DNA from: Candidatus Methylopumilus sp.
GTDB lineage: Bacteria; Pseudomonadota; Gammaproteobacteria; Burkholderiales; Methylophilaceae
Length of the DNA stretch: 64,000 nt
NCBI GenBank assembly: GCA_024640945.1
Contig: JAHEEA010000001.1
Location: forward strand, 124,001 to 188,000
Direction of reading: 5' to 3'
Part shown: piece by piece, positions 25,946 through 47,275 of the stretch
Numbering within the stretch: position 1 is the first letter of the stretch
How the letters are laid out: each line of letters starts with the position of its first letter
Made by a program: the position numbers and the translations under genes
The notes under the pieces: generated by a model
Told to the model about the DNA's origin: nothing
Databases searched by the model: none
The model's input: only the letters and a program-made list of their open reading frames with translations

Positions 25946-27964
25946 ATGGATTTAAAACCAAAAGAGAACTTAATCGAACGTAATGGACGGCCACACTTCT
26001 ATAACGGCTATGTTCTCGGTTACCATACACCCTGTCTACGTTATCAAGTTAAATTTAAAACTGATAAGTGCCAATATCTCTCTAGTATTGATGAATTTTT
26101 AAAGTCCCAAGTTGAACCGTCAAAAGATGCTTATCCTTCATCCGAAAAATCGGATGAAGGCAGGATGCTCTGGAAATGGATTGGCCCAATTCTTAAAAAA
26201 GCAGGACACCCAGTATTTGAATCGGCGCACTATTTGAGTCTCCCAAGTTCATCTAATAAAGAAGCCCTGATAATTCAACCATGCTTTGACCCAGCAGCTA
26301 CTTTACTAGCAGTTGACTTTGTGATCGATCTTATTAATAAACATAACAAAAATCTACCTACTATGGGAATCACCCCGTCGCATTGGGATGAAAAATTTAA
26401 AAAATTGATTCAAAAGCTTAGTAAAACCGGATTGCAAGGCTTTAATTCAATCCATTTCCTCTCAGCTGCTCATGACCTCGGCATACCCTGGATGCAACTC
26501 GGTGGCAATCTTATACAACTAGGGATAGGCAATAAGGCTCGCTGGATTAACAGCTCCCTTACAGATAGAACACCAGTAATTTCCACGAAAATTGCCCGCA
26601 ACAAGTCAGCAGCAGCAGAGTTGCTAAAAAAAGCAGGTCTGCCAGTGCCCCCTCATTTTTTTGCCGCTGACCCTGAAGCTGCAGTCAATCATGCAAAATC
26701 TCTTGGCTATCCGGTTGTAGTCAAGCCAGCTAACCTCGATGGAGGGGTGGGAGTTAAAGCGAATCTCAACGAAGAAGATGCCGTACGAAAAGCCTTTAGG
26801 GAAGCCAGGAAAGCATCCAGCCAAATTCTTATCGAAAAACATGTGCCTGGTCGTGATTATCGACTACAAATCGTCAACGGTAAGGTTCAGGGTATTCTTG
26901 AAAGGATTCCAGGTGGCGTTATCGGCAACGGATCAGCCACTATTATTGATCTATTGATTCAGCAGAACAATTTGCGCAAAAGCGCTCAAGACGATCGCCG
27001 ATACCTCCATCCAATTTTAAAAGACGACGAATCCTCAGCACAACTTTCCATGCAAGGCTTGAACTGGGAAAGCATTCCGCAAGCTGGTTATTTTGTTCGA
27101 TTACGTGGCGCAGCTAACGTAGCAAGTGGTGGCATTCCAGTAGAAGTGTCTATTGACCTAGCTCATCCTGACAACCTAGCGCTCGCCATTCGAGCTGTGC
27201 GAATTCTAAAACTTGATATCGCAGGAGTTGACCTACTTATCCCTGACATACAAAACAGCTGGTTAGAAAGCGGCGCCCACATCTGTGAAGTCAATGCACA
27301 ACCCCAGATGTTTACAACAATGCATAAACCTATGCTGGAGGCCCTCTTTGCTAACGATGCCAGTCGAATTCCTATCATCATACATCTATCAGCATCGCCA
27401 ACCGATAATGATCTTAGCATGCGAATTCATCGGCAGTTAAATCAACAAGGCTTAATAACAGGCTTAGTTCATGGCGAAACGCTGTGGCTTGGACAGGATT
27501 GCATAAGCCATGGCGTAAAGAGCGCTTTTTCTGGTGCACGCATGCTCACCTATGACCAAGCAGTTGAGGCCATTGTAATTTGCTGCAAAGACACCTCACT
27601 TCTTGAACAAGGCTGGCCCCTCGATTACTGCGATCTACTCATCATCGAAAGCCTCCAATCAGCTTCAGAAAAAGTAAAATTTACACCCTCTACTGTAGAT
27701 TGGATCAATGCAGCTGCGGGACTTGACATTAAGGTTTTAATGGCACCAGAACACAATCGGACTGAAGTTATAAACGCTTTAAAACCCTGGAAAAAACAAC
27801 CACAAACGATACTAAGTGACTTCTCCGACCATAAAAAAGTTGAACATACCATCAACAAACTTCTATCTGCGATTAATAAAACTTCGAATTCAAGTTCAAA
27901 AAATAAAACCTATTCCAGAACAAAACCTTCTCAAGCTGTTGACCATAGCTCTAGCAAAATTTAA
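25946..27964 (+). CDS. Cyanophycin-synthetase-like ATP-grasp ligase 1
   Basis: About 672 residues, laid out like cyanophycin synthetase CphA: an N-terminal domain (to about 165), an ATP-grasp domain (about 185-470) and a Mur-ligase-like C-terminal half. ATP-grasp residues are kept: Lys260 in VVVKPANLDGG, EKHVPGRDYR, IGNGSATIIDLL, LDIAGVDLLIPDI, and Glu448/Asn450 in CEVNAQP. Where CphA has the Mur P-loop GTNGKTTT, this protein reads HLSASPTDNDLS, so the second ATP site is lost although TLWLGQDCISHG and the following Mur-like segments remain. I infer one carboxylate-amine ligation per protein. A Ser/Lys-rich tail of about 30 residues ends it. ATG at 25946 is preferred over TTG at 25931. Confidence 0.8.
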   Translation: MDLKPKENLIERNGRPHFYNGYVLGYHTPCLRYQVKFKTDKCQYLSSIDEFLKSQVEPSKDAYPSSEKSDEGRMLWKWIGPILKKAGHPVFESAHYLSLPSSSNKEALIIQPCFDPAATLLAVDFVIDLINKHNKNLPTMGITPSHWDEKFKKLIQKLSKTGLQGFNSIHFLSAAHDLGIPWMQLGGNLIQLGIGNKARWINSSLTDRTPVISTKIARNKSAAAELLKKAGLPVPPHFFAADPEAAVNHAKSLGYPVVVKPANLDGGVGVKANLNEEDAVRKAFREARKASSQILIEKHVPGRDYRLQIVNGKVQGILERIPGGVIGNGSATIIDLLIQQNNLRKSAQDDRRYLHPILKDDESSAQLSMQGLNWESIPQAGYFVRLRGAANVASGGIPVEVSIDLAHPDNLALAIRAVRILKLDIAGVDLLIPDIQNSWLESGAHICEVNAQPQMFTTMHKPMLEALFANDASRIPIIIHLSASPTDNDLSMRIHRQLNQQGLITGLVHGETLWLGQDCISHGVKSAFSGARMLTYDQAVEAIVICCKDTSLLEQGWPLDYCDLLIIESLQSASEKVKFTPSTVDWINAAAGLDIKVLMAPEHNRTEVINALKPWKKQPQTILSDFSDHKKVEHTINKLLSAINKTSNSSSKNKTYSRTKPSQAVDHSSSKI

Positions 27965-27979
27965 AGTCGATTTATTGTA

Positions 27980-29056
27980 ATGGAATGCTCAGGCCAAAAT
28001 ATTTCAACAGATTATATTCAAACGTTACCCAAAGTTGAGCTACATCTTCATCTCGAAGGTACTCTGAGCCCAAACTTGATTCTTAATCTGGCAGATAGAA
28101 ATCGTTTGCGACTTCCATTTCAAGATGTGGATGGCTTTGAAAAACTTTATCGATACAACTCATTTAAAGACTTCTCCAATGCTTTACTTTTGGGTGTTTC
28201 CTGCCTCCGGAAGCCTGAGGATTTCTCCGACGCCGTCAAGAATCTGGGGGAAGCTTTAATCAAGGAAAATGTGAGATATGCAGAGGTAACATGGACGCCA
28301 CAGTTCTACCTAAATAGAGGATTCCCACTCCACATATTATTAGAAGCGATGAATACTGCTCGCAAAGAATTGGAGCAGCGAAATGGCCTCCAGTTACGCT
28401 GGATTCCTGATATTGTCAGGAGCCGCCCGCAACACGCTACTGAAATAGCAAACTGGGCAAGCTCTCAAGCAAGCCGTGATGCTGGAATCGTTGCGCTAGG
28501 GCTAGGCGGTCCAGAGAAAGGGAACCCTGCAGCTCAGTTCATGAAACCTTTTGCTCGGGCACGCAATGCAGGACTGCCAGCAAACCCACATGCAGGTGAA
28601 GGTGCAGGAGCTGAAAGTGTATGGGATACCATTAACTCTCTAAAACCATTACGCTTGGGTCACGGCGTCAGATCCTTAGAAGACAGCCAATTAGTTAACT
28701 ACCTAATACAGCATAAAATTCCTCTAGAAGTCTGTATCACGAGTAATATCCGACTTGGAATTTTTTCTAATTACGAAACACATCCAGTGAACGACTTAAT
28801 TCGTGCTGGATGTTCAGTAATACTTAACACCGACGATCCGGTACTTTTTAACACCTCGCTCAGCCAAGAATATATTCTTGGCATCACACGATGCGGCCTT
28901 AGTATAAATGATATCGAAAAAAGCATCCTAACTGGAATAAAATCAAGCTACTTAGATGAAAATAACAAGAGCCAATTAACAAAGGAATTTTGCGATGAAT
29001 TTACGCGATTAAAGTTAAATGTTTCTGCAGATAGTCGCACCTTGCAACAGCATTGA
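27980..29056 (+). CDS. Adenosine-deaminase-family amidohydrolase
   Basis: A 358-residue metallo-deaminase. Zinc and catalytic residues are complete: His22 and His24 in KVELHLHLEG, His204 and Glu207 in NPHAGEGAG, His228 in LGHGV and the Asp pair 285-286 in LNTDDP. The family includes adenosine, adenine and aminofutalosine deaminases, so the exact substrate cannot be read by eye. It sits 15 bases after ligase 1 and just before a methyltransferase, so a role in tailoring a nucleoside-like or purine intermediate of the cluster is possible; ordinary purine salvage is the alternative. Confidence 0.85.
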   Translation: MECSGQNISTDYIQTLPKVELHLHLEGTLSPNLILNLADRNRLRLPFQDVDGFEKLYRYNSFKDFSNALLLGVSCLRKPEDFSDAVKNLGEALIKENVRYAEVTWTPQFYLNRGFPLHILLEAMNTARKELEQRNGLQLRWIPDIVRSRPQHATEIANWASSQASRDAGIVALGLGGPEKGNPAAQFMKPFARARNAGLPANPHAGEGAGAESVWDTINSLKPLRLGHGVRSLEDSQLVNYLIQHKIPLEVCITSNIRLGIFSNYETHPVNDLIRAGCSVILNTDDPVLFNTSLSQEYILGITRCGLSINDIEKSILTGIKSSYLDENNKSQLTKEFCDEFTRLKLNVSADSRTLQQH

Positions 29057-29075
29057 GAAAAGAGAGGCAGTCTGA

Positions 29076-29861
29076 TTGAATGATTTAAAAAAAACAACCC
29101 GCTTGTGGAGTAAAAACGCCAAAAACTGGTCCGCAGGCATTCGCGATGGGCTTGATGTAATTAATAACCAGTTTGGACTTCCTTTTTTTGTCAGCCAGCT
29201 TCCCGATCTAAAAGGAAAAACAGTTCTGGACGCAGGCTGCGGTGAAGGTAGAAGTAGCCGTGCAATCATACAACCTGGTGCACGCATAATCGGTGTCGAT
29301 ATATCATCCTCTATGTTAGATTTTGCAAGAGAGGAAGAAGCACAGCATCCTAAAGGAATTCAATATATTGAAGCCTCTTGCGACTTACTCGATACTATTG
29401 AATCAAAATCCATCGATATAGTTACCTGCTATATGTCGCTGATGGACATGCCAAACATTGATCAAGTGATGCATCAATTCTCCAGGGTGTTAAAGCCTAA
29501 TGGGGAAATTTTTATTATGGTCAGACACCCTTGTTTCTTTACGCCAGGCTTTTCGGTTTATCGATCAAAAACTGATGAACGTGCCGGGGTAACAGTTTCA
29601 AGTTATTTTAAAAACGATGCATATATTGATCGATTCAGTTTTCCTGAACTTCCAAAAGCGCAATTTGAAGTAATTAGGTTTCCTTATACGTTGAGTCAAT
29701 ATATGGCATCCATGAATAACGCGGGGTTTATACTCCAAGGCCTTAAAGAGCCTACACCGCCCATTAGCCTCTGCGCCACCCACCCTCGCCTTAACTTTTG
29801 GAGAACTCATGCTGGTATCTTCCTCTTTCTGCAAGGTATATTGAATAATAATGACATCTGA
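29076..29861 (+). CDS. SAM-dependent class I methyltransferase 1
   Basis: A 261-residue Rossmann methyltransferase of the Methyltransf_11 type. SAM motif I is VLDAGCGEGRSSRAI (about residues 50-65), motif II acidic residue in IIGVDISSSML, and the post-I region CDLLDTIESKSIDIVTCYMSLMDM. The start is TTG at 29076 with AGAGAGG upstream; no ATG precedes the conserved part in this frame. It overlaps the next gene by 11 bases. The substrate is unknown. Confidence 0.8.
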   Translation: MNDLKKTTRLWSKNAKNWSAGIRDGLDVINNQFGLPFFVSQLPDLKGKTVLDAGCGEGRSSRAIIQPGARIIGVDISSSMLDFAREEEAQHPKGIQYIEASCDLLDTIESKSIDIVTCYMSLMDMPNIDQVMHQFSRVLKPNGEIFIMVRHPCFFTPGFSVYRSKTDERAGVTVSSYFKNDAYIDRFSFPELPKAQFEVIRFPYTLSQYMASMNNAGFILQGLKEPTPPISLCATHPRLNFWRTHAGIFLFLQGILNNNDI

Positions 29862-30648
29862 CAAAAACAAAATCATCCACCCCACTTGCGATCTAGGTGC
29901 ACTAAGGAATATGGGAAGCAGCACGCTAGGCTTTCTAGAACGTGCCAACTTTATTAACTCGCTACCCAAAGATCGTACGCACAAAAAACGAGTAATTATT
30001 TTCTCAACACTAAGATCAGGCTCAACATTTCTATCAGATCAAATCGCATCTTCCGGCTTGGTCGGAGCGCCTGATGAATGGCTTAATCCAATTTGGTTGA
30101 GTGCTCTTAATAATGCAAAATATGCCAGCAATGTTCTAGAAGCTTTGGACTGGGCGGCTTGCAGAACCTCAACTACTAACGAGATTTTTTCAATCAATGT
30201 ACAAGTAAATCATTACATTTACTGGAGGAAAAAGGGATTTGATCTTTTGAAGTGGGGCTTTGACGATGCTGTTTATCTTGAACGAAAAGACAAGCTCTCA
30301 CAAGCTTACTCTCTCGCAAAAGCAAGAATCATTAACAAATGGGATCAAACAAACTTAACAGAAAATGAAATTTCTGGTAAACAGAATGTTCCCTTGTATG
30401 CAATTTTAAAAGCTCTGAGCGATATCTATTTTTGGTCTGACTACTTCGACAAAGTGCTTAAACCTCACACAAGCAATACCATCTCATATGAAGATTATCT
30501 TAGTGATTCTAAGGTCATCCTTGATCTGATCGCGCAATTCTCTGGCGTACATTTAGATGCCTTGGCGATGAAAAGTAAACTTCAGAAGCAGCAAACCGCC
30601 GAAGATATAGCAGCTATTGCATCACTCAAAACCAAAATACTTCTCTAA
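29851..30648 (+). CDS. Stf0-like sulfotransferase 1
   Basis: A 265-residue protein resembling Stf0, the trehalose 2-sulfotransferase fold. The PAPS 5'-phosphosulfate loop is RVIIFSTLRSGSTFLSDQI (residues about 47-65), followed by SGLVGAPDEWLNP, which matches the Stf0 pattern after the P-loop. The later SQAYSLAKARIINKW matches the conserved Ser/Arg helix of that family. It probably transfers a sulfuryl group from PAPS to a hydroxyl. Last gene of the first plus-strand run, overlapping the methyltransferase. Confidence 0.75.
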   Translation: MTSDKNKIIHPTCDLGALRNMGSSTLGFLERANFINSLPKDRTHKKRVIIFSTLRSGSTFLSDQIASSGLVGAPDEWLNPIWLSALNNAKYASNVLEALDWAACRTSTTNEIFSINVQVNHYIYWRKKGFDLLKWGFDDAVYLERKDKLSQAYSLAKARIINKWDQTNLTENEISGKQNVPLYAILKALSDIYFWSDYFDKVLKPHTSNTISYEDYLSDSKVILDLIAQFSGVHLDALAMKSKLQKQQTAEDIAAIASLKTKILL

Positions 30649-30773
30649 TATGCAAAAAATTAAATGTTGATAAATATCGAATAATTCAAAATTATTTTGA
30701 TTATCAACATAGAAAGTATTATGCATAGCATGTGCCAAATGATTATTAGAATTAAAATCCAATAAAATTAGTT

Positions 30774-31247
30774 CTAATCAAACCACTCGGGAACATTAGG
30801 CATCGCCCAACCTGCTTTAGATACAGTTAAGAAAAGCGCTTGTAATAAACGATGAAAGTCTAATCTACTCAAATTAAGAACAATATTCTTAGAATCAACC
30901 GTAATTACAAGCTTCCAATTAAGATCGTTTGCGGAAGCCTTAATACAACTGATTAACAATGATTTTTGCTCAAAATCTTTTGATGTTAACCCCGAGCGTT
31001 TATTCATAACGATTGGTTCACTGCCATCGTCCATTGGAGCTAAAGCTTCCTGATGATCAATCTTAATTCGCTCTTTCGACGGGAGCGCCCTTGGGATATC
31101 GCCTCCTGGAGCCGTTTTCTCTAATAAGGAAGCACTAGGGCCAATGAACTTCTCTAAAAGTTTTCGCGTAAGCCAATAACAAGGACTTTTATCGAGCTTA
31201 AACCAAACTCGATCTTCTGAAGCACTATATCCGAATGTATAGTTCAT
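30774..31247 (-). CDS. Hypothetical protein inside the cluster
   Basis: A 157-residue protein of unknown family. It begins MNYTFGYSASEDRVWFKLD and contains a YWLTRKLLEKFIG helix, a charged low-complexity middle (about 55-85) and a hydrophobic C-terminal segment (LNLSRLDFHRLLQALFLTV). No signal peptide or catalytic motif is evident. It is the only minus-strand gene between the first sulfotransferases, with about 125-150 bases of AT-rich flank on each side, so it is transcribed on its own. Confidence 0.55.
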   Translation of the reverse strand: MNYTFGYSASEDRVWFKLDKSPCYWLTRKLLEKFIGPSASLLEKTAPGGDIPRALPSKERIKIDHQEALAPMDDGSEPIVMNKRSGLTSKDFEQKSLLISCIKASANDLNWKLVITVDSKNIVLNLSRLDFHRLLQALFLTVSKAGWAMPNVPEWFD

Positions 31248-31401
31248 TATTTAAAATAAAAAAATTAATGATCATGTATGATTTACACTAAAAACTAAGC
31301 ATCAATAATATCAGTCAATGACTAGAAATACTTCATAACAAGTGAGTTTTACCTAAAATTACTAGAAAAATTGCCATCCGATTCTTTAAAACGAGGTAGA
31401 A

Positions 31402-32163
31402 ATGCAAGCAACAAATAAGTACGATCGGTATTTATCACCAGATCGAGATTTTCGATCTGGTCCATACAAGACTAAAACAAGATATATATTGTGCTCATCC
31501 CCGAGAGTTGGATCTACATTACTTGGACAAATGTTACGAGATACAAATCAAGCCGGAGATCCATTAGAGTATCTCAATCAAAACTATTTTAATGCTCTAT
31601 TAAGAAGATATAACGATATTTCTAGCTTTCATGATGCCTATAATTTGCTAGAACGATATCGCACAAGTAGTAATGGTGTATTTGGATTACAACTTCATTG
31701 GTCACATTTCAATCAATTTTTTCAAGAAAAAAATGTACTCATGGATGAGTTTTTCCGAAAATTCGATAAAATCGTATTTTTGCGAAGAAGAAACCGTGTT
31801 GAACAAGCAATATCTCTTTATAGAGCATCCCTTACAAAATTGTGGAGTTCTATAGATGAAGATAATCGCAATGCTCACTACTATGAAAATGAAAATTTCG
31901 ATCCAATTGCTATCACAAAATTTATGCATTCAGCAATCGCCCAAGATCAAGGATGGATCAATTATTTGGAATTAAAGGGTAAAGAATACTTAACAATTTA
32001 TTACGAAGACATAATAGACAATTGGGAATCAGAAGGGAAAATGCTGCTCAAGTATTTAATCAACGATGAAACACCCATTCCAAAGATGGCGTTACGTCAA
32101 CAACGTCCCGATAACGACCTAACTTACAAAAAATTTACAGACTATTTAGGCTGTAAAACTTAG
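31402..32163 (+). CDS. Stf0-like sulfotransferase 2
   Basis: A 253-residue protein of the Stf0 type. The PAPS loop is YILCSSPRVGSTLLGQML (residues about 29-46), followed by AGDPLEYLNQ, which corresponds to the conserved GxPxEYF of the family. RRRNRVEQAISLYRASLTKLW is the conserved 3'-phosphate helix. GAGGT lies six bases before the ATG. It is distinct in sequence from the first copy, so recent duplication is unlikely. Composition is clearly more AT-rich than in the left part of the window. Confidence 0.8.
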   Translation: MQATNKYDRYLSPDRDFRSGPYKTKTRYILCSSPRVGSTLLGQMLRDTNQAGDPLEYLNQNYFNALLRRYNDISSFHDAYNLLERYRTSSNGVFGLQLHWSHFNQFFQEKNVLMDEFFRKFDKIVFLRRRNRVEQAISLYRASLTKLWSSIDEDNRNAHYYENENFDPIAITKFMHSAIAQDQGWINYLELKGKEYLTIYYEDIIDNWESEGKMLLKYLINDETPIPKMALRQQRPDNDLTYKKFTDYLGCKT

Positions 32164-32348: not shown

Positions 32349-32831
32349 ATGAAATTAAATATAATAATCGTTGTCAGTTGCGTAATTTTTTCTTCTGCAC
32401 TACATGCTCAAAACAAACTAGGTAAATTTTCTCATCTATCAAAATTCTCAGGTTCTTGGGACGTTGAACTTGTTTACAAGGATAGTGAGGTTAGAAACCT
32501 TATATCTAAAGAATTTTATTTGGATCTTGATAAATTCAGAGCGGATAAGGAAGATGAGCTTTCACAAATAGATGTCATCAAAGGAAATATGATTCTAGAA
32601 AGCTATTCAAATCAAAATTTTTGTGCCAGCAGTACTTTTATGAGTATTTCGCTTACCGATGATGATGAAGTTTATTTAATAATGCTCCGAAATAGTAAAG
32701 TTAGTATTCTGCATACTATATTTGGAGAGCGCACGAGGAATATGAAAAGTTTACGGCCTACTAAAGAAGTGACTAAATACATTAGAAAAATTCTTAGAGA
32801 ATGTAAAAGCAAATCTCTTCAAAATATATAA
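32349..32831 (+). CDS. Secreted hypothetical protein
   Basis: A 160-residue protein with a signal peptide (MKLNIIIVVSCVIFSSALHAQ). The mature part has no motif that I recognise; it holds a SKFSGSWDVELVYKDSE segment similar in feel to lipocalin-like or surface-hypothetical proteins, and a basic C-terminus. AGG precedes the ATG at a short distance. About 185 bases of AT-rich sequence separate it from the sulfotransferase upstream. Confidence 0.5.
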   Translation: MKLNIIIVVSCVIFSSALHAQNKLGKFSHLSKFSGSWDVELVYKDSEVRNLISKEFYLDLDKFRADKEDELSQIDVIKGNMILESYSNQNFCASSTFMSISLTDDDEVYLIMLRNSKVSILHTIFGERTRNMKSLRPTKEVTKYIRKILRECKSKSLQNI

Positions 32832-32939: not shown

Positions 32940-33740
32940 ATGAAACCAATATTCGTACTTGGAGTTGGAGCCCAGAAAGCTGGAACAACTTGGTTGCACA
33001 GACAACTTAATAAGCAAAATTATGCAAATTTTGGATTTATCAAGGAGTATCACATTTGGGATGCTATTCACTCTCCTTTACGTATAGCATACAGAGCAAA
33101 TATACAAAAAAATGAAACAGCAGCAAATGCTCTTAGAAGATTAATGCAAACCCAAGATGGCGTTTACGAAAATTATTTCCGTAAACTAATGTCAAAAGAT
33201 GTTTTTGTTACTGGCGATATTACACCAAGCTATTCATTATTAGACTCAGCAGTCTTTTCTAAAATTCGCTCTAAACTTGAAACCGTTGGATTCGATGTGA
33301 AAGTAGTATTTCTAATGCGCGATCCTACGGAAAGAATATGGTCATCTCTTAAAATGATCCAAAGAAACCAAAAAACTAATGGGGCCATTATAAGTGATGA
33401 TGATTTATTAGTTAATTTTGAGCAAAATTATAAAAGTACTGGCCAAGAAGCGCTTACACGTTATGACAAAACAGTAATGGCTCTGAGGAATGCTTTCGAT
33501 GAAAGCAACCTACACTTTGAGTTTTATGAAAGGCTTTTTAATAATGACTCTATCGAACGATTAAGCCATTTTCTTGATATAAATTTGAATGAGGTAAATT
33601 TGGCCGAGAAGATAAATTCATCAAAATCTTTAGATTTACCAAACGAAGTTGCATCAAAATGTCGCGAGCATTTCTCAGATGTTTATGATTTTTGCAATAA
33701 AGAATTTCCAGAAACTAAATTGTTATGGGTTCGGAATTAA
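32940..33740 (+). CDS. PAPS-dependent sulfotransferase 3 (classical family)
   Basis: A 266-residue sulfotransferase of the Sulfotransfer_1/3 type. The 5'-phosphosulfate loop is VGAQKAGTTWLHRQL (about residues 9-23), and the 3'-phosphate site is VVFLMRDPTERIWSSLKMI (about residues 122-140). DITPSYSLL in between is the usual GDxTPxY motif. Substrate unknown. It stands in its own unit, downstream of the secreted protein and convergent with cysQ. Confidence 0.85.
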   Translation: MKPIFVLGVGAQKAGTTWLHRQLNKQNYANFGFIKEYHIWDAIHSPLRIAYRANIQKNETAANALRRLMQTQDGVYENYFRKLMSKDVFVTGDITPSYSLLDSAVFSKIRSKLETVGFDVKVVFLMRDPTERIWSSLKMIQRNQKTNGAIISDDDLLVNFEQNYKSTGQEALTRYDKTVMALRNAFDESNLHFEFYERLFNNDSIERLSHFLDINLNEVNLAEKINSSKSLDLPNEVASKCREHFSDVYDFCNKEFPETKLLWVRN

Positions 33741-34670: not shown

Positions 34671-34799
34671 ATTTCCTATGCGTCAAATGTAGTTAAAAGT
34701 TAATAATACAGTTAAACCGATTAAATTAATAACAAGTAAAATTTATACGCTTAGATTATCGCTAGATGTTGTAAATAAAATTTGAAAAAGTTAATACAT

Positions 34800-39691: not shown

Positions 39692-40558
39692 TTAATTAAT
39701 ATAAGCTGCAATATATTTAAGTAACCTTGATGATATTAATGCTTTAGCAGCTTCACGATCGCCCATTCGCACAAAATATCCAACAATTGCAAAGTATGAC
39801 CTCATATGCATTTCATTTTTTTGTATTTTGGATTTTGATGACCATATACCTCCATCATGTTGCACATAAGCAAGTGGGCCAACATCATCATGAAATTTTG
39901 CCGCTCCAAACGTTGCTAAAAGCATAGGATAGAAATTGTCGCCATTTGGCACCAAGTTATATTCTGGCGGGAACTCTATTGCTACATTTCTATGAACAAT
40001 AGTTCCAAATAACATCCAACCCCATTTTAATATTCTTAATTCTGCTTTCGTGTAATCTCTGCGAGAGGATTTTGATAAGACATTCCTTACGATTAATTTT
40101 CCCATCTTATCAATTGCTACTGCGTCATGGAATGACATTACATATTCAGCATGTTTATCTAAAAACTCAACTTGCTTTCTTAGCTTATCTGGGTCAGTCC
40201 AAAAATCATCACCATCACAATGGGCTATATACTCACCTTTGCATTTTTTTAACAGATGAGGTCGCAACTTAATTTGCTTTGAAAATTGATTCTCTTTTTG
40301 CAAAAAAACCTTAATTATCTTAGGAAATTTTTTAGCATATGCTGATATGATTTTTGATGTTTTGTCTTTAGAAGCATCATCATGAATAATAATTTCCACT
40401 GGGAAATTTACTTTTTGCATCAAAATAGAGCCTAGACATTTCCGGATAAAATTTTCTTGGTTATATGCCATAACAACAACGCTGACTTTAGGTGATGCAT
40501 CTTCCGAAAAATCAGTTTGATGAATTGGCAGTAATGTTGATTTGTTTTCTGACATCAT
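39692..40558 (-). CDS. Family 2 glycosyltransferase
   Basis: About 288 residues. The GT-A fold nucleotide-sugar site is VSVVVMAYNQENFIRKCL, followed by EIIIHDDASKDKT and the metal DxD-like motif in HCDGDDFW. It resembles enzymes adding sugars to surface glycans or small molecules. It is convergent with sulfotransferase 4 and divergent from the aminotransferase gene. ATG at 40558 is chosen over GTG at 40585. It may belong to the cluster or to envelope glycan synthesis. Confidence 0.83.
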   Translation of the reverse strand: MMSENKSTLLPIHQTDFSEDASPKVSVVVMAYNQENFIRKCLGSILMQKVNFPVEIIIHDDASKDKTSKIISAYAKKFPKIIKVFLQKENQFSKQIKLRPHLLKKCKGEYIAHCDGDDFWTDPDKLRKQVEFLDKHAEYVMSFHDAVAIDKMGKLIVRNVLSKSSRRDYTKAELRILKWGWMLFGTIVHRNVAIEFPPEYNLVPNGDNFYPMLLATFGAAKFHDDVGPLAYVQHDGGIWSSKSKIQKNEMHMRSYFAIVGYFVRMGDREAAKALISSRLLKYIAAYIN

Positions 40559-40667
40559 GTGTAACTTATGAAAAATATTTAGCACTAAATAGCCTAAGTA
40601 TGTTACAAAGTTACGATTTAAACAACACGTATCATATTTATCATGAAATAGTGATAAGGTTCATATT

Positions 40668-41822
40668 ATGAATAATCAGGATAAAAAAATTGACGGGGTT
40701 GGCTACTATTCGGATCTTCCCAACATTTATGTAACTAAACCAGACTTGCCGCCACTTGATGAATTTATCCCATATTTAGAAGAGATTTGGGATAGTAAAA
40801 TTCTCACAAATAATGGCCCCTTTCATCAACAGCTAGAAAAAGCTTTATGTGAATATCTTGGGGTGGAATTTATATCATTATTCACAAACTGCACTATCGC
40901 TTTAATGGCTGCACTAAAAGTATTAGAAATCAAAGGCGAGGTAATTACTACACCATATTCATTTGTAGCAACTTCAAACGCTTTAATATGGAATAATCTC
41001 CAACCAGTCTTTTCTGATATAGATGAGAACACTTTTAATATAGATCCAAATGAAATTGAAAAATCTATTACAGCCAACACAACTGCAATATTAGCTGTTC
41101 ACTGCTATGGTTATCCTTGCGCCGTAGATAAAATAAAAAAAATCGCTGACAAATACAAATTAAAAGTCATTTATGATGCAGCTCATGCTTTTGGTGTTTC
41201 CTATCAAGGTGAGAGCATCTTGAAACATGGTGACTTATCTGTAATAAGTTTTCATGCTACCAAGGTATTCAATACTTTCGAAGGTGGAGCAATTATTTCA
41301 CATGATGCTAAAACCAAAAAACGAATAGATGAACTTAAAAATTTTGGTTTTGTTAACGAAACCAGCATTAATTCGGCTGGAATAAATGGAAAAATGAGTG
41401 AGCTAAATTCGGCATTCGGGTTGGTACAACTTAAACATGTCGATAAATACATTGCTCAAAGAAAGTTAATTTACAAGAGCTATTGCGATAAATTAAAAAA
41501 TGTACCGGGCTTAACACTACCCAATCCAATAGAAAACACATCAGAAAACTATTCTTATTTGCCCATTTTGATTAATGAAAAATATCATTTAGATCGAGAT
41601 AGTCTTTATAAAAAAATGCGAGATAAAAACATTTATAGCAGAAGATATTTTTACCCATTAATTAGCGATCTAGAGATTTATGAAAAAATCACTAGTGCTA
41701 GTAAAAAAAATCTTCCCATCGCAAGCATTATTAAAGATCAAATAATTTGCCTTCCTATCTATCCCGCACTCACAAATGATGATGTTTTAAGAGTGGTCGA
41801 ATGTATAACAAGAGAAGATTAA
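40668..41822 (+). CDS. DegT/DnrJ/EryC1-type PLP aminotransferase
   Basis: A 384-residue aminotransferase of the sugar/aminocyclitol class. The PLP lysine is Lys199 in SFHATKVFNTFEGG, Asp170 in VIYDAAHAFG binds the pyridine ring, and the C-terminal PLP half is complete. Members convert keto groups of nucleotide sugars or cyclitols to amines. It heads a six-gene run ending in ligase 3, so a substrate on the pathway is plausible; nucleotide-sugar modification for a surface glycan is the alternative. Confidence 0.87.
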   Translation: MNNQDKKIDGVGYYSDLPNIYVTKPDLPPLDEFIPYLEEIWDSKILTNNGPFHQQLEKALCEYLGVEFISLFTNCTIALMAALKVLEIKGEVITTPYSFVATSNALIWNNLQPVFSDIDENTFNIDPNEIEKSITANTTAILAVHCYGYPCAVDKIKKIADKYKLKVIYDAAHAFGVSYQGESILKHGDLSVISFHATKVFNTFEGGAIISHDAKTKKRIDELKNFGFVNETSINSAGINGKMSELNSAFGLVQLKHVDKYIAQRKLIYKSYCDKLKNVPGLTLPNPIENTSENYSYLPILINEKYHLDRDSLYKKMRDKNIYSRRYFYPLISDLEIYEKITSASKKNLPIASIIKDQIICLPIYPALTNDDVLRVVECITRED

Positions 41823-41866: not shown

Positions 41867-42535
41867 ATGGTTAATTCAGAAAATCTGATTATTTTCGGGG
41901 CAAGCACATTCTCCAGCCTTGCTTGGTACTGCATCTCACATGATAGTCGTTATAAATGCATAGGATTTACTGCCGACCAAGCTTACTGTATTCCAAGCGA
42001 ACACGAGGGCCTACCTTTAATTCCTTTTGAAACATTACATTTAAAGTTTCCACCGGAATCAGTCTCTCTTATATTGCCAATTGGCTACAAGTCCATGAAT
42101 AATTTAAGGCGTGTCAGATATCTCGATGCAATATCAAAGGGATATAAAATCGCTAATTATGTATCAAGCCGTGCAAGCATTTGGCCCGACTTGGAAATTA
42201 AGGATAATTGCATAATTTATGAACATTCAATTATCCAACCTTTTGCAACAATAGGAGAAAACACTATTATTCGAAGTGGCGCTCATATATCGCATCACTG
42301 TAAAATAGGTAGCCATGTATTTATAGCAGCTGGGGCAACCCTTGGCGGTAACGTTACTATCAATGACCAAGCTTTTATTGGTTTGGGTGCTGTTATTAGG
42401 GACGGGATTACGATTGCAGAGAAATGTTTTATTGGTGCAGGGGCGGTGGTAATAAAAGATACGGAACCAAACAGCGTATATATTGGCAACCCTGCTAAAA
42501 AAATTGAAAAAACAGCTTTAGAAACGACTGCTTAA
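41867..42535 (+). CDS. NeuD-like left-handed beta-helix acyltransferase
   Basis: A 222-residue protein with an N-terminal Rossmann-like PglD/NeuD domain (LIIFGASTFSSLAWY) and a C-terminal hexapeptide-repeat helix (from about residue 110: ISHHCKIGSHVFIAAGATLGGNVTINDQAFIGLGAVI). These transfer acetyl or similar groups to amino sugars. It directly follows a DegT aminotransferase, the usual pairing in 4-amino sugar N-acetylation. GGA lies before the ATG. Confidence 0.82.
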   Translation: MVNSENLIIFGASTFSSLAWYCISHDSRYKCIGFTADQAYCIPSEHEGLPLIPFETLHLKFPPESVSLILPIGYKSMNNLRRVRYLDAISKGYKIANYVSSRASIWPDLEIKDNCIIYEHSIIQPFATIGENTIIRSGAHISHHCKIGSHVFIAAGATLGGNVTINDQAFIGLGAVIRDGITIAEKCFIGAGAVVIKDTEPNSVYIGNPAKKIEKTALETTA

Positions 42536-42544
42536 GGCACACTA

Positions 42545-43408
42545 ATGAAAACAATCATAAACTTCGCTCCTACTGGGATGTTACCAACAAAGTCTATGAC
42601 ACCTCATGTACCAATTACTGTAAATGAAATTGTTGAGGATGTTCACAAGGCAACTGAAATTGGTATCACCATGGTACACCTCCATGCTAGAGATGACAAA
42701 ACCGGTAAACCTACATACAAAAAAGAAGTTTATGCTCAAATTATCGAAGGTATTAGAAGGTATGCACCTACTTTAGTTATCTGTGTATCACTTAGTGGTC
42801 GAGACTTTAGCTCTTTTGAACAAAGGAGTGATGTTTTATTGCTCGATGGAAATGTAAAGCCCGATATGGGAAGCCTTACACTAAGCTCACTTAATTTCAA
42901 CAAGCAAGCGAGCATTAACGAGCCTGAAATGATTCAGAAACTAGCTGAGAAAATGCTTGAACGAGGCATATTGCCAGAACTAGAAGCTTTTGATTCTGGA
43001 ATGATTAACTATGCTAGGTATCTTGAAAATAAAAATATAATAAGCGCTCCCCATTATTTCAATCTAATTGTAGGTAATATTGCTTGCGCCCAGGCTGATC
43101 TGCTTCACGTAGGAATAATGGTGAGAGACTTACCAGAGGATTCGATGTGGAGTTTAGGCTCAATAGGTAATACGCAATTACCAATGAACATACTAGGAAT
43201 AGCAACCGGTGGAGGCGTAAGGGTTGGAATAGAAGACAATATCTGGTTTGATAAAGCTAGAACAAAACTTGCCACAAATCAAGATTTCTTGAACAGAATT
43301 CATGGTGTAATTAACGCATCAGATCAAACACTAATGTCTTCCGAAGAAATGAGAGTGCTTTTGAAACTTTTACCTGGTAATGGTAATTATGGTAGAGCAA
43401 TTAATTGA
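42545..43408 (+). CDS. BKACE-family (beta-keto acid cleavage) enzyme
   Basis: A 287-residue BKACE/Kce-type TIM-barrel zinc enzyme: FAPTGM near the start, zinc ligands His45/His47 in VHLHARD, CVSLSGRDF, the LEAFDSGMI and LVGN segments, and a C-terminal GGGVRVGIEDNIWFD. BKACEs exchange an acyl between a beta-keto acid and acetyl-CoA, first known from lysine fermentation. No lysine-fermentation genes are near, so it probably serves the cluster by making or breaking a beta-keto acid. Confidence 0.85.
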   Translation: MKTIINFAPTGMLPTKSMTPHVPITVNEIVEDVHKATEIGITMVHLHARDDKTGKPTYKKEVYAQIIEGIRRYAPTLVICVSLSGRDFSSFEQRSDVLLLDGNVKPDMGSLTLSSLNFNKQASINEPEMIQKLAEKMLERGILPELEAFDSGMINYARYLENKNIISAPHYFNLIVGNIACAQADLLHVGIMVRDLPEDSMWSLGSIGNTQLPMNILGIATGGGVRVGIEDNIWFDKARTKLATNQDFLNRIHGVINASDQTLMSSEEMRVLLKLLPGNGNYGRAIN

Positions 43409-43409
43409 T

Positions 43410-44231
43410 ATGAATAAAAGTATTTGGAGTCATGAAGCAAGCTTAAAATATCGAGGTGGGCCACCTTTAAGAACACCAGAAAGCGTTGCAAATATCATAT
43501 TTGATCTTGCGAATAATGTTATTTCTAATAAGCCAAATACAAAAATTTTACTATTAGGGGTAACACCTGAAATCGCCTTACTGCCGTGGAATAAAAATAT
43601 AACACTCACAGCCTTCGACAAAAGCAAGGAGGCAATCAGTGTTGTTTGGCAAAATAATCCGAACATTCAATCAACTGTTCAGCAGGGCGACTGGCTAACC
43701 CTTCCACTAGAAGATCAATCGGTTGCTTGTGCGATTGGGGATGGCTGTAATACTCAACTGGATCACATGAATTTATACCCGACTCTTTTTAATGAGCTTA
43801 AAAGAGTCTTAAATAAAGAGGGGGTGGTCATTACACGTATCTTTATACGCCCAGAACTACCAGGTTCTTTTAAGGAAATCGTCAAATCGACTTTTGAAGG
43901 AAAAATACAATATTTTGGCACCTTAAAATGGAAAATTGCCATGACTTTAGCGGAACAATCGAAAAAATCTGAAGTGAAAGTAGCGCAAATTCTAGAAACA
44001 TTCGAAGATTTATTTCCAAATCGCGATGAACTTTTACGCTGTACTGATTGGACAAAAGATATTATCAACACAATTGATGTATACAAAAATTCACATCAGT
44101 CCTATACGTTTCCAACACTTAATGAGTTTAAAAAGACTATTCATGGAATATTTGAGATAACCGAAATTAAATATGACACGCATGAACTTGCAGAATGCTG
44201 TCCAATCATTTCACTAAAAGCAAGTTATTAA
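43410..44231 (+). CDS. SAM-dependent class I methyltransferase 2
   Basis: About 273 residues, a SAM methyltransferase by fold: ILLLGVTPEIALLPW is the SAM motif I region, LTAFDKSKEAI motif II, QGDWLTLPLEDQSVACAIGDGC the post-I region and LKRVLNKEGVVITRIFI the following strands. Motif I is unusual, having a short GVTPE loop. It starts one base after the BKACE stop (ATG at 43410). Substrate unknown; it might also be a methyltransferase-like fold without activity. Confidence 0.65.
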   Translation: MNKSIWSHEASLKYRGGPPLRTPESVANIIFDLANNVISNKPNTKILLLGVTPEIALLPWNKNITLTAFDKSKEAISVVWQNNPNIQSTVQQGDWLTLPLEDQSVACAIGDGCNTQLDHMNLYPTLFNELKRVLNKEGVVITRIFIRPELPGSFKEIVKSTFEGKIQYFGTLKWKIAMTLAEQSKKSEVKVAQILETFEDLFPNRDELLRCTDWTKDIINTIDVYKNSHQSYTFPTLNEFKKTIHGIFEITEIKYDTHELAECCPIISLKASY

Positions 44232-44244
44232 AAGAATTAATTTC

Positions 44245-45360
44245 ATGAATAAAAGAACAGAAACTTCTTCTATTGTCTTAAGAGCGGATAAAGTAGTCAC
44301 ACAAAAAACTATTGGCACACAAAAAGTAAAATATAAAAATCCAAGAATATCCATTGATAGCAAAATATTAGCGCCTTTAAAACCCGATCACCTAAGAATA
44401 GAAATTGTTTATGTAGGTATATGTGGCACCGACGTTCATCTCATCCAATCAGATAGTGATGGATTTATTCTAACTTCAGCTCCATTGGATATCCCGTTAG
44501 ATGGCAGATTGATTGGTCATGAAGGTGTAGGGAAAGTGATTTCTATAGGTGCTGATGTAAATAGATTTAAATTAGATGATTATGTGGCTTTAGAATCAAT
44601 AATAACATGCAAAACTTGTGAGCCCTGCCGAAGAGGCAACTTCAATCAATGTGAGAACGCCAAACTTGTTGGCATGCAAACAAATGGGATTTTCTCGACC
44701 ATAGTCGACATTCCTGAATCTATTGCACACAATGTTAACAGTCTTTCCAATAAAGAAGATGGACTAAAGGCCGCGGCCTGCTTAGAGCCTGCAGGCGTAG
44801 CTTGGTTAGCATGTAATAACTCAACAATTCAAGCTGGCGAAAGCATTCTAATCTTCGGTGGAGGACCTATTGGTTATTTTTGCGCAATGATAGCAAAACT
44901 TATCTTTGGCGCTTCACACATCTCGTTAGTTGAACCAGTATTATTCAGAAGAATCCATGCAAAAAAGTGGTGTGACGATATCCATGAAGCAATAGATGAT
45001 GATGTTCTCAAAAAATCATACGATGTGATTATTGAGGCCTCTGGATTTTTAAAAAACCTTCCTCCAATAATAGATCGTATAAAACCAAATGGAAGGCTTG
45101 CCCTGCTCGCTCGAAGTGGAGAATCTATTACAATTGATGGCGTAGATCACATCATTACTAACAATATCAAAATATTTGGAGTTAGAGGTCATTTAGGCGG
45201 CGCTTTCGGCCGGATCATTAACTTGTGTCAAGCTGGTCGACTTCCAATCCATGAAGCCGTCACAAACGTTCTTAGTTCTATTGAAAATCTTCAAGAAACG
45301 CTAATAAATCCCACCAATATTCTTACAAAGAACTGTAAAGTTCTTGTGAAAATTAACTAG
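44245..45360 (+). CDS. Zinc-dependent alcohol dehydrogenase (MDR)
   Basis: A 371-residue medium-chain dehydrogenase. Catalytic zinc ligands are Cys60 in GICGTDVH and His92-Glu93 in GHEGVG; structural zinc ligands are Cys122, 125, 128 and 136 in CKTCEPCRRGNFNQC. The NAD loop is ILIFGGGPIGYF. It resembles threonine, sorbitol or aminocyclitol dehydrogenases. Its neighbourhood with a DegT aminotransferase recalls the oxidation-then-transamination of aminocyclitol pathways, which is only a suggestion. Confidence 0.87.
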   Translation: MNKRTETSSIVLRADKVVTQKTIGTQKVKYKNPRISIDSKILAPLKPDHLRIEIVYVGICGTDVHLIQSDSDGFILTSAPLDIPLDGRLIGHEGVGKVISIGADVNRFKLDDYVALESIITCKTCEPCRRGNFNQCENAKLVGMQTNGIFSTIVDIPESIAHNVNSLSNKEDGLKAAACLEPAGVAWLACNNSTIQAGESILIFGGGPIGYFCAMIAKLIFGASHISLVEPVLFRRIHAKKWCDDIHEAIDDDVLKKSYDVIIEASGFLKNLPPIIDRIKPNGRLALLARSGESITIDGVDHIITNNIKIFGVRGHLGGAFGRIINLCQAGRLPIHEAVTNVLSSIENLQETLINPTNILTKNCKVLVKIN

Positions 45361-45364
45361 GTAT

Positions 45365-47275
45365 ATGATAAGTATCCAGTCAACCCATCCTATTAGGGGC
45401 TTCGTTTTTGGGCTTCACTATCCTTCTTTGCGGACTATATTAAGTATTACAGATTCTGACTACGAGAAGAATTTAGTAGCTGCAAACCATATATTAAGTT
45501 TGGTAGGATCAAACAAGATTATCGCCATAAAAGAAAATGAATCTGAACCCAATTATCATATTTTCACTCAAATTATTGATGAAATAATTAATTTAACTAA
45601 CTGGCCAATATTTCAAAAAACAATTCTTATTAGCGTGAAGCAGTCTTCTGAATATCTATTCTTAATACCCTGCATAAATGATGGTTTCCATTCTATAAAT
45701 TGCTTGGTTCGAGCAATATCTAATCTATTAAATATTGGTATAAATAAAAAGTTGTTTAAAAAAGACTGCGCTGAACTATTAGCAGTCATCAATAAAATGA
45801 AGAATCTAAATGTTAATGATAGCAATACGAAAAACTTCATTAAAGCGGCTGTAAGACTAAAAATCCCTTTCACTCCATTAGCTAACGGACTATATCAATT
45901 TGGTTATTGCTCTGAATCCAGAAGACTTAATAGCTCATTGACAGATAAAACTCCACAGATTTCAACTGCTATTGCTAAAAACAAATTTGTTTCCAGTAAT
46001 ATATTAAAAAACAGTGGTTTCCCAACACCACGACACTTTATAGTTCATGATATTGCTTCTGCAATTCAAGCAGCCAATTCTTTGCAATACCCAGTTGTTA
46101 TCAAACCACAAGACCTCGATCGTGGAGAGGGGGTTTTTGCAAATATTAAGGATACTGATGAATTAGAAGTCAGTTACAAGAAAGCGAAGAAATTTGGCAA
46201 CTATATTCTCGTTGAGAAACATGTGACTGGAAAAGATTATCGACTCGTGGTTTTTGAAAATGAATTGATTTTTGCAATCGAGCGAGTTCCAGCACATATA
46301 ATTGGAGACGGGGTCGCAACAATTGAGGAACTCATTCTTATTGAGAATAGAAAAAGAAAAAATACGCCATCTCTTGCGTTGCTAACTTTAGATGATGATG
46401 TTTTACTACAGCTAAATAAAAATAATTACACTAAGAACAGCATTCCTTCGACTGGTTCAGTAATTCAGTTAAGATCTATTGCCAATATTAATACTGGTGG
46501 CACCCCAAAACCTGTACTAAATATAGTTCACGAAGACAATAAAGCATTGGTAATTCAAGCTGCTAATTGTATTGGGCTTGATTTGGCTGGAGTTGATCTA
46601 CTGATTCCAGATATTAGTAAGTCTTGGAAAAAACAAGAAAACCAAGGATTCATTTGTGAGATTAATGCTCAACCCACTCTAGGCTCACTCACATCATCCC
46701 ACTTATACCCCTATTTGCTTCAGAAACTACTACCAAATAAAGGAAAAATACCAATTATTGGCGTGGTTGAAAGCCCTTCGTCCGCACAATACGTTAAGAA
46801 ATTTAAAGAGGCTTTTCAAGCTGCTAATATGAAGGTGAGTTGTATTACTTCCGAAGAAAATTCAGAAGAGTTTTTGGGATTTTACCTGGACCCAAAGATC
46901 AACTATAGCATGTATGAGAAAGCGTCAATCGCCTCTCGTAACAACCAAATACAAAGTGTAATTTGCGAATTAACTCCTACAAAACTACTTAAAGATGGCT
47001 TAGCTTTTAGTTATATTAATCTATTACTAATTGATGAATATCAATTTCCAGATGATTCTAAGGTAAATAGCTTCTCTCTAATTAGCCCTATTCTTCCCAT
47101 GGTAGAAAAGAAAATTTATTACCACCACTCAAACAAACCAAACAGGCCACTTTTTTCTAGGCTGGAGGCTTATTGCAAATCAAGGGGTTTGGATCTTGAG
47201 TCAATCCAATCAGATAAGAAAATGGAAGACGTAATCAATACGATTAACGTCTCCACATTTATCAAAAACTCTTAA
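45365..47275 (+). CDS. Cyanophycin-synthetase-like ATP-grasp ligase 3
   Basis: A 636-residue paralogue of ligases 1 and 2. It opens with the shared IRGFVFGLHYPSLR motif. The ATP-grasp region has RRLNSSLTDKTPQIS, Lys247 in VVIKPQDLDRG, EKHVTGKDYR, IERVPAHIIGDGVATIEEL (nearly identical in feel to CphA), LDLAGVDLLIPDI and Glu432/Asn434 in CEINAQP. The Mur P-loop is missing: KIPIIGVVESPSSAQYVKK stands in its place. It starts four bases after the dehydrogenase gene and ends the third plus-strand run. Confidence 0.82.
   Translation: MISIQSTHPIRGFVFGLHYPSLRTILSITDSDYEKNLVAANHILSLVGSNKIIAIKENESEPNYHIFTQIIDEIINLTNWPIFQKTILISVKQSSEYLFLIPCINDGFHSINCLVRAISNLLNIGINKKLFKKDCAELLAVINKMKNLNVNDSNTKNFIKAAVRLKIPFTPLANGLYQFGYCSESRRLNSSLTDKTPQISTAIAKNKFVSSNILKNSGFPTPRHFIVHDIASAIQAANSLQYPVVIKPQDLDRGEGVFANIKDTDELEVSYKKAKKFGNYILVEKHVTGKDYRLVVFENELIFAIERVPAHIIGDGVATIEELILIENRKRKNTPSLALLTLDDDVLLQLNKNNYTKNSIPSTGSVIQLRSIANINTGGTPKPVLNIVHEDNKALVIQAANCIGLDLAGVDLLIPDISKSWKKQENQGFICEINAQPTLGSLTSSHLYPYLLQKLLPNKGKIPIIGVVESPSSAQYVKKFKEAFQAANMKVSCITSEENSEEFLGFYLDPKINYSMYEKASIASRNNQIQSVICELTPTKLLKDGLAFSYINLLLIDEYQFPDDSKVNSFSLISPILPMVEKKIYYHHSNKPNRPLFSRLEAYCKSRGLDLESIQSDKKMEDVINTINVSTFIKNS

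Follow-up and report, generated by a model that had tools for sequence, protein, structure and literature searches.

The subject of this analysis is a stretch of 64,000 nucleotides from Candidatus Methylopumilus sp. (contig JAHEEA010000001.1; hereafter the window), and in particular a region in which three ATP-grasp ligases related to cyanophycin synthetase (CphA) lie among sulfation and tailoring genes. An earlier note, made from the sequence alone, had read positions 25946-47275 as a single biosynthetic pathway leading to a small, amino-acid-conjugated, sulfated metabolite. The region runs on past 47275 into genes for a GT41 glycosyltransferase, a cysteine-free protein of 1856 amino acids (aa) and the HlyD, ABC and TolC components of type I secretion (47295-60092), and its three ligases fall into separate clades. 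The reading that we favour, and to which we give about an even chance, is that of a variable cell-surface island in which swappable ligase cassettes, together with sulfation, decorate an exported surface protein or glycan with amide-linked, methylated and sulfated groups.

The genes of the region (25931-60092) are given below with their strand and supporting matches; A, B and C are the three ligase cassettes, AF2 denotes an AlphaFold model, ORF an open reading frame, SAM S-adenosylmethionine, APS adenosine 5'-phosphosulfate, PAPS its 3'-phosphorylated form and PAP the corresponding bisphosphate.

25931..27964, +, lig1: CphA-derived ATP-grasp ligase, 677 aa, with a degenerate Mur half; cassette A (NCBIfam PRK14016 1.5e-90, below cut-off; AF2 model)
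27980..29056, +, ada: adenosine-deaminase-family amidohydrolase; cassette A (TIGR01430, 267 bits against a cut-off of 217; motifs HLHLEG, HAGE, TDDP)
29076..29861, +, mt1: SAM methyltransferase; cassette A (Methyltransf_11 1.4e-20)
29851..30648, +, stf1: Stf0-like sulfotransferase; cassette A (PF09037 1.3e-7, over residues 49-85 (37 residues) only; 11-base overlap with mt1)
30774..31247, -, hyp31: 157-aa ORF without Pfam match
31402..32163, +, stf2: Stf0 sulfotransferase (PF09037 1.4e-22)
32349..32831, +: 160-aa ORF (Pfam match below cut-off only)
32940..33740, +, st3: sulfotransferase (PF00685, Sulfotransfer_1, 4e-8)
33879..34670, -, cysQ: 3'(2'),5'-bisphosphate nucleotidase, removes PAP (TIGR01331, 262 bits against 229)
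34782..35375, +, cysC: APS kinase, makes PAPS (NCBIfam TIGR00455, 248 bits against 139; also 276 against 163)
35368..37269, +, lig2: CphA-derived ATP-grasp ligase, 633 aa; cassette B (NCBIfam PRK14016 4.8e-79, below cut-off)
37236..37727, +: hotdog-fold protein of the dehydratase/thioesterase superfamily; cassette B (AF2 model)
37715..38944, +: cytochrome P450 with heme motif; cassette B (PF00067 2.1e-30)
38954..39673, +, st4: sulfotransferase (PF17784, Sulfotransfer_4, 4.6e-15)
39692..40585, -, gt2: family-2 glycosyltransferase (PF00535 3e-23)
40668..41822, +: DegT sugar-type aminotransferase (PF01041 2.9e-101; best PDB match 2po3, 3e-61)
41867..42535, +: NeuD/PglD-type acyltransferase (TIGR03570, 193 bits against 161)
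42545..43408, +: BKACE, beta-keto acid cleavage enzyme; cassette C (PF05853 1.3e-75)
43380..44231, +, mt2: SAM methyltransferase; cassette C (PF08241 1.3e-6)
44245..45360, +, zndh: zinc-binding dehydrogenase; cassette C (PF08240 1.4e-19)
45365..47275, +, lig3: CphA-derived ATP-grasp ligase, 636 aa; cassette C (NCBIfam PRK14016 1.2e-87, below cut-off)
47295..47711, -: small 138-aa ORF with a lipoprotein-like start, judged by eye (homologue beside spy in the congener G006)
47713..49566, -: GT41 (SPINDLY/O-GlcNAc-transferase-type) glycosyltransferase (PF13844 4.2e-78, 263 bits against 25)
49673..55243, -: acidic protein of 1856 aa with 0 Cys, probable type I secretion cargo (without Pfam match)
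55357..56550, -: HlyD-type membrane fusion protein (PF13437 1.6e-20)
56543..58786, -: type I secretion ABC transporter (PF00005 2e-28, PF00664 3.4e-17)
58761..60092, -: TolC-type outer-membrane efflux protein (PF02321 6.4e-48)

The genes that the earlier note had named are present as ORFs where it placed them, and profile matches support its three ligases, four sulfotransferase-like genes, cysC, cysQ, ada and other enzymes, so that its description of a set built around ATP-grasp ligases with dedicated sulfation, free of nonribosomal peptide synthetases (NRPS) and polyketide synthases, is upheld. The list was incomplete, since it omitted gt2, two small ORFs and the continuation at 47295-60092. 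The overlapping starts that it reported are real at stf1, lig2, the hotdog gene, the P450 gene and mt2. The plus-strand genes form three tight groups (lig1-ada-mt1-stf1; cysC-lig2-hotdog-P450-st4; degT-neuD-BKACE-mt2-zndh-lig3), but the minus-strand genes hyp31, cysQ and gt2 interrupt 25946-47275, and the region is therefore not a single operon. The GC content is 0.39-0.43 in the lig1 group and 0.30-0.39 in the cysC-lig2 and degT-lig3 groups, or about 32-39% across 30-47 kb, where the lig1 part and the flank upstream are both at about 43%; this contrast suggests that the gene groups were acquired separately.

The relatives of the ligases were collected by a pattern scan of 84,980 species genomes, in which 240 stretches matched and 167 encoded a relative; the best 80 constitute the loci analysed here (loci and genomes carry the prefixes L and G), and their ORFs were called mechanically, with the result that GC-rich loci include false ORFs. 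The best NCBIfam matches of lig1-3 are cyanophycin synthetase models, at scores far under the full-length cut-offs. The family falls into two groups by length, a short one of about 570-743 aa and a long one of 854-936 aa, with 5 of 100 ligase-like frames outside both (425, 480, 790, 826 and 1421 aa). The AF2 model of lig1, built from a 48-sequence alignment (mean predicted local distance difference test, pLDDT, 88.6), matches CphA1 (7wae_C) with a Z score of 26.8 over 613 aligned aa, lig1 residues 15-647, and CphA2 with Z scores of 24.4 (7ta5) and 24.2 (8fxh), which is the architecture of N domain, G domain and truncated M domain in about 630-640 aa.

The short ligases have lost the Mur P-loop of CphA1 and kept its ATP-grasp core. 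The Mur P-loop G[TS]NGK[TS] occurs in 0/75 short ligases, lig1-3 included, as against 21/24 long ones, and two of the three long members that lack it are short-type ligases with an extra domain (an APS kinase in L044, a TPR domain in L060). In the ATP-grasp (G) core, by contrast, K220, K261, E300, R309, E450 and N452 are each kept in 76/76 short ligases, R323 in 75 and N394 in 73, where the residue numbering is that of TeCphA1, transferred by alignment and in agreement with the paper at the P-loop lysine 499. Arg458 is found in 0/76 short ligases (8 of which have a gap at the column) and in 22/23 long ones, the sole long exception being the TPR-fused short ligase of L060; the comparison is referenced to CphA1. 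This residue of CphA1 contacts the alpha-carboxylate of the incoming aspartate, according to PMC9427784. An intact ATP-grasp core together with the lost Arg458 implies, as far as residues can predict chemistry, that the short ligases should be ATP-dependent acid-amine ligases that couple an amine other than aspartate. As to the amino-acid conjugation proposed earlier, the ATP-grasp core predicts the coupling of an acid to an amine, but the arginine that in CphA1 meets the alpha-carboxylate of the incoming amino acid is gone. Two further comparisons proved uninformative: the regular expression for the N-domain zinc motif matched 0/24 long CphAs, and the column of the P-loop His267 holds histidine in only 1/23 of them.

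No cyanophycinase was matched at E<=0.001 in the genome, which is 96.6% complete, and no CphA-like gene was found in it beyond lig1-3, the next-best match having an E-value of 3.8e-6. Plasmid records gave only generic CphA matches below 30% identity (best 20 of 131 records). CphA-like genes outside storage metabolism include a separate ligase family with partners specific to each cassette, present at least in Pseudomonadota, Chlorobiota, Cyanobacteriota and one bin labelled as an anammox planctomycete, with the proviso that bins can be contaminated. Among its members, the ligase at L044:9539-12148 (870 aa) carries a C-terminal APS kinase fusion (APS_kinase 1.8e-68) and lies beside a type I secretion system, a giant protein and a GT41 gene (L044/L133), and the ligase at L060:3816-6293, with the TPR domain fused to its N-terminus, lies directly downstream of two GT41 genes. 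In several genomes, as in the window, two or three ligases are clustered on the same contig, though with other partners (L045/L072, L051/L066, L050/L079; L041, L084, L098). The window itself holds another ATP-grasp cluster, at 1685-5809 on the minus strand; its consecutive genes encode a proteasome-like subunit, a transglutaminase, an alpha-E protein and also a circularly permuted ATP-grasp.

The three ligases of the window belong to three clades, with which the partner genes go along. Maximum-likelihood analysis of 68 of the 87 rows (most of the long CphAs had been removed, as had ten rows that were fragmentary or on long branches) places lig1 with L021-L026 (7 rows, SH-aLRT support 100), lig2 with 11 others (91) and lig3, on a long branch, with three Chlorobiaceae sequences, L065/L070/L071 (92); an earlier tree had put lig3 elsewhere, beside L088 (support 80). 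For cassette A, mt1 occurs at 3/6 loci of the lig1 clade and 0/57 elsewhere, and ada at 4/6 and 3/57; for cassette B, hotdog occurs at 10/11 loci of the lig2 clade and 1/52 elsewhere, and the P450 at 10/11 and 3/52; for cassette C, mt2 occurs at 3/3 loci of the lig3 clade and 9/60 elsewhere, and zndh at 3/3 and 2/60. These counts must be read with the understanding that loci inside one clade are related and not independent, and that some of the matches elsewhere are weak or partial (L042, L054, L069). Cassette A is the least supported of the three, and the L025 stretch stops at the ligase. The order mt2-zndh-lig3 of the window recurs in L065, L071 and, in part, L070; an mt2 homologue lies within 6 kb of a ligase at 11 loci, and a homologue of the Stf0 sulfotransferase stf2 lies directly upstream of lig1 in L021 and L022. 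The lig1 set is found in Pseudomonadota and Chlorobiota and the lig3 set in Chlorobiota, while the lig2 set occurs in Pseudomonadota and, at L087, in a cyanobacterium.

Since the partner genes track the ligase clades, each ligase has its own conserved partners, and more than one of the three sets occurs together at 0 of the loci examined. The earlier idea of one joint pathway is not supported, given this separation and a congener (G006) whose island has the lig2 cassette only. The independent occurrence of ligases, sulfotransferases and P450 in relatives, which the earlier note had itself named as counting against its proposal, was found for the ligases and the P450, which sit in separate cassettes, so that the objection applies in part.

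Other genes, too, lie near ligases in the relatives. A TauD-family oxygenase adjoins the hotdog-P450 cassette at L034:13543-14421, with homologues in L052 and L087. In Chlorobiaceae a GNAT acetyltransferase-BKACE fusion adjoins the ligase (L039:11951-13309, checked with Pfam; relatives in L031, L033, L040, L042 and L054), and a homocitrate-synthase-like gene is nearby in several. Near the ligases of L043, L046 and L047, ANL enzymes and tripartite-tricarboxylate-type binding proteins recur (by eye), and a TupA-like ATP-grasp directly follows the L047 ligase, with a homologue in L043.

The island has a dedicated PAPS supply. No full-length APS kinase other than the cysC of the window was found in the genome, and in G006 the only one again lies in its island, while 5/10 genomes of the genus, some of them incomplete, have no full-length APS kinase, only matches of 21-23 bits over about 50/152 positions, inside longer frames, that formally exceed the Pfam cut-off. 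The CysH of the genome, encoded beside cysD- and cysN-like genes away from the island, has the CC...CxxC form, which we take to be the APS reductase type, and PAPS should consequently not be needed for assimilation. The PAPS made by the island cysC should then serve sulfation, to judge from these sequences. In the congener G002 two cysC copies directly adjoin sulfotransferases, and one cysC lies by genes that by eye resemble capsule export. This may explain why a small genome whose sulfate assimilation bypasses PAPS has an isolated cysC.

The key part of the region for its interpretation is the continuation past 47275, which the earlier note left out. The TolC, ABC and HlyD genes adjoin a gene for a large cysteine-poor protein, the arrangement that identifies a type I secretion locus; an RTX-type cargo was considered and rejected, as the GGxGxD nonapeptide pattern is absent from the 1856-aa protein. 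In G006, on one contig, the same thrS gene is followed by lig2-hotdog-P450, other tailoring genes, a small ORF, GT41, a giant protein, HlyD, ABC and TolC, and then by stf2, cysQ and cysC, so that the stf2 homologue adjoins the secretion genes. The tailoring genes in that island encode a methyltransferase, a pyridoxal-phosphate (PLP) enzyme, a DAO-family oxidase, an ANL enzyme and a sulfotransferase (PLP/DAO/ANL at L102:11162-14953). No homologues of lig1, lig3, DegT or NeuD were called in the 55-kb G006 stretch, and the genome has a single strong CphA-type match. Of 10 genomes that represent the genus, not all of them complete, only the window genome and G006 have the close GT41 (65%) and secretion ABC (72%) genes. 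A short-type ligase is the top match in G000, G006 and G037 among 60 genomes of the family (G000-G059), as judged by match range and open-frame length, with the frames of G046 too fragmentary to be classed. A stretch of 19 kb in G037, which belongs to another genus, holds a ligase, cysC, an ORF that by eye resembles a sulfotransferase, and hlyD-abc-tolC, with transposase-like ORFs around them.

The same association recurs in more distant bacteria. Type I secretion, a giant protein, GT41 and a ligase occur together in a Gallionellaceae bin (L128+L036), a Burkholderiales bin (L133/L044, in a different gene order) and a Comamonadaceae bin (L130+L084); type I secretion, a giant protein and a ligase, with GT41 not adjacent, occur in Comamonadaceae and related bins (L043/L131, L047/L132, L046/L129) and in Peristeroidobacter (L055). 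A search for GT41 genes covered the genomes belonging to 50 of the 80 loci and placed one at 7/50 ligase loci, compared with 0.30 expected under a null of uniform placement (maximum 5 in 200,000 simulations; about 51 GT41 genes in the 50 genomes, tallied by hand), although the choice of the 50 favoured the enrichment, because the 30 omitted loci had shown no GT41-like match in an earlier neighbourhood comparison. Scaled at the same density to all 80 loci, without a search of the remainder, the expectation is about 0.45 against the same 7. L044 is counted on the strength of a GT41 gene that starts about 9.3 kb away from the ligase, as L133 shows, and the weak matches of L063 and L046 (58 and 70 bits) are not. 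At L036, L060, L068, L074 and L097 the only GT41 genes of the genome (E<=1e-10) are those at the ligase, L068 being assigned by position and not by contig name. HlyD of the window type was found at a distance of up to 25 kb from the ligase at 7/50 loci, compared with 0.33 expected. The giant proteins themselves share little: among six compared, N-terminal similarity was detected in 2/15 pairs (residues 41-98 of the window protein with the L128 protein, of G114, 2.6e-7; L128-L133, 1.4e-8), and the other three proteins gave no such match.

Hints as to the chemistry come from individual enzymes. Neither Pfam nor NCBIfam has a family that matches the hotdog protein, and a profile search of the PDB with its sequence found no relative, but its AF2 model (10 sequences, pLDDT 84.3) matches FabZ (Z 15.6), SAV606 (Z 14.7) and Rv0098 (Z 14.1), so that the predicted structure bears out the hotdog assignment of the earlier note and points to the acyl-thioester superfamily fold. 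The best PDB sequence match of the P450 (4e-59) is 3ejb, 'biotin biosynthesis cytochrome P450-like enzyme', presumably P450BioI, which acts on acyl-ACP; 2po3, the best match of DegT, is presumably a sugar 4-aminotransferase, and RmlB is encoded elsewhere in the genome. The SAV606/Rv0098 fold, the G006 DAO and the TauD neighbours suggested that cassette B may carry out isonitrile or beta-amino-acid chemistry, for which the sequence gave no support; CmiS2 (6j38) ranks 8th among the matches for that DAO.

The gene content, the ATP-grasp core, the lost Mur site and arginine, the PAPS supply, the three separately conserved cassettes and their repeated association with GT41 and type I secretion are directly supported; the giant protein as cargo and acceptor, all substrates and the order of the steps are what we infer beyond them. 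In the scheme proposed for the cell-surface island, the type I system would export the giant cysteine-free surface protein, which the neighbouring GT41 would most likely glycosylate in the cytoplasm. Each cassette would make or modify a small carboxylic or amino-acid building block, using an adenosine-deaminase-type enzyme and a methyltransferase in cassette A, the hotdog protein and the P450 in cassette B, and BKACE, a methyltransferase and a dehydrogenase in cassette C. The ligase of the cassette would activate the carboxylate with ATP as an acyl-phosphate and join it to an amine, which would most likely be located on the glycan, on its amino sugar (DegT/NeuD) or on a growing oligoamide. CysC would make the PAPS from which the sulfotransferases add sulfate, with CysQ clearing the PAP, and sulfotransferases and methyltransferases would finish the amide products.

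A more ambitious version of this scheme, which we put forward only tentatively, is that the region exemplifies a new, NRPS-independent modular assembly, in which horizontally shared CphA-derived ligases, each with its building-block cassette, form mix-and-match islands that decorate giant GT41-glycosylated, type-I-secreted surface proteins. If the island works in the way proposed, amide-bond chemistry that uses neither an NRPS nor the ribosome diversifies bacterial surface proteins, and the cassettes amount to a list of testable ligase/acid pairs.

Several observations weigh against a surface role. A P450, a BKACE and an adenosine-deaminase-type enzyme are unusual for glycan decoration. At 43/50 searched loci (11/50 loci being shorter than 15 kb) no GT41 lies within about 10 kb, and the link between GT41 and ligase is therefore not obligatory; the 50 loci included, moreover, every locus with a GT41 match in the neighbourhood comparison. 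The Chlorobiaceae lig1 cassettes of L021 and L022 have no GT41 or type I secretion genes in the stretch examined. The genome has a second, more distant GT41, and GT41 proteins can act elsewhere. In the HlyD count the cut-off (about 1e-80) and the 25-kb limit were set post hoc, and in two of the genomes with the closest HlyD (G104/L025, G107/L028) it is, by number, on another contig. The giant proteins are mostly dissimilar, with 1 of 5 matching the N-terminal part of the window protein. Finally, ABC-2 transporter families, which would suit a diffusible product, match 2/110 scanned neighbours; these 110 are not a clean sample (246 nearest were listed, many omitted and 12 added by hand, mainly glycosyltransferases, one cysC and one sulfotransferase), and because the hand-added proteins bias the glycosyltransferase numbers upwards, those numbers are not used as evidence of enrichment.

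The strongest rival, which we consider possible but clearly less likely than a surface island, is that the cassettes, jointly or singly, make small diffusible sulfated amides (a signal, an antibiotic or a siderophore-like compound) and merely lie beside a surface-protein locus. The small metabolite of the earlier note was proposed without regard to the surface-protein context. The P450, hotdog, BKACE, adenosine-deaminase-like and methyltransferase genes are typical of specialised metabolism; the ANL enzyme, DAO oxidase and PLP enzyme added in the G006 island, the TauD oxygenases beside the hotdog/P450 cassette, the ABC-2 matches and the 43 ligase loci free of a nearby GT41 fit the proposal too. 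Among the scanned window genes, however, no dedicated exporter, regulator or self-resistance gene was recognised; GT41 and type I secretion genes are enriched at ligase loci, GT2, DegT and NeuD point to sugars, and the three cassettes are conserved separately.

TupA-type ATP-grasps probably amidate or acylate polysaccharides. A modification island for O-antigen, capsule or exopolysaccharide, in which the ligases act in this manner independently of the 1856-aa protein, is in our judgement improbable. It would account for GT2, for DegT, for NeuD, which exceeds its cut-off, for the RmlB encoded elsewhere, for the TupA-like ATP-grasps in 3/110 scanned neighbours and for one cysC of G002, which lies by capsule-export-like genes, two others lying by sulfotransferases; but no Wzx, Wzy or initiating transferase was found among the 38 window proteins scanned with Pfam, and GT41 acts on proteins in known cases, that of PMC3983070 included. 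Synthesis of cyanophycin or a cyanophycin-like storage polymer by CphA2-type enzymes, for which the whole-length fold match to CphA1 and CphA2 might be cited, can be given almost no credence and is rejected on the lost Mur P-loop, the lost aspartate-recognising Arg458 and the want of any cyanophycinase match (E<=0.001) or additional CphA-like gene in the genome.

Among the papers listed in searches of the open literature, preprints excluded, there is no described pathway with this gene set, in agreement with the earlier note, and no described counterpart of the island; no paper in the literature searched joins cyanophycin synthetase and sulfotransferase with a gene cluster or a glycosyltransferase. 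The island nevertheless resembles known systems in its parts. The N, G (ATP-grasp) and M-domain core of CphA1 (7wac, 7lgn) aligns with lig1 and the G-core residues are kept, whereas the island ligases lack the Mur P-loop and Arg458, are embedded in tailoring cassettes and occur in a genome without a recognised cyanophycinase. CphA2 (7ta5, 8fxh; 629 and 642 aa) is similar in size and architecture and has one active site, as stated in PMC10206079, but it is described as a cyanobacterial enzyme that repolymerises beta-Asp-Arg, and its identity to the island ligases is about 19-24%. A comparison with CmiS1/SAV606 thioesterases and CmiS2 (PMC11284099) is suggested by the structural proximity of the hotdog protein to SAV606 and Rv0098 and by the glycine-oxidase-family DAO of G006, but FabZ scores equally well for the hotdog protein, which has no sequence-level PDB relative by profile search. 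RaxST/RaxABC likewise links a sulfotransferase to type I secretion, but there (PMC4216712, PMC6637879) the product is a small tyrosine-sulfated peptide and no ligase cassettes are described.

A further comparison is with HMW1C/HMW1, in which, according to PMC3983070, a GT41 gene lies beside that of a large exported adhesin and HMW1 is glycosylated in the cytoplasm before export. There the adhesin leaves by two-partner secretion, while the window has type I secretion and the additional ligase, sulfation and methylation cassettes, and its GT41 matches Pfam GT41 best, reaching 44 bits against the cut-off of 1000 of the HMW1C-type model (NF049992). The island is real, unusual and, within the literature searched, undescribed; it varies known kinds, ATP-grasp ligases and surface-protein modification loci, and may embody a new principle of assembly.

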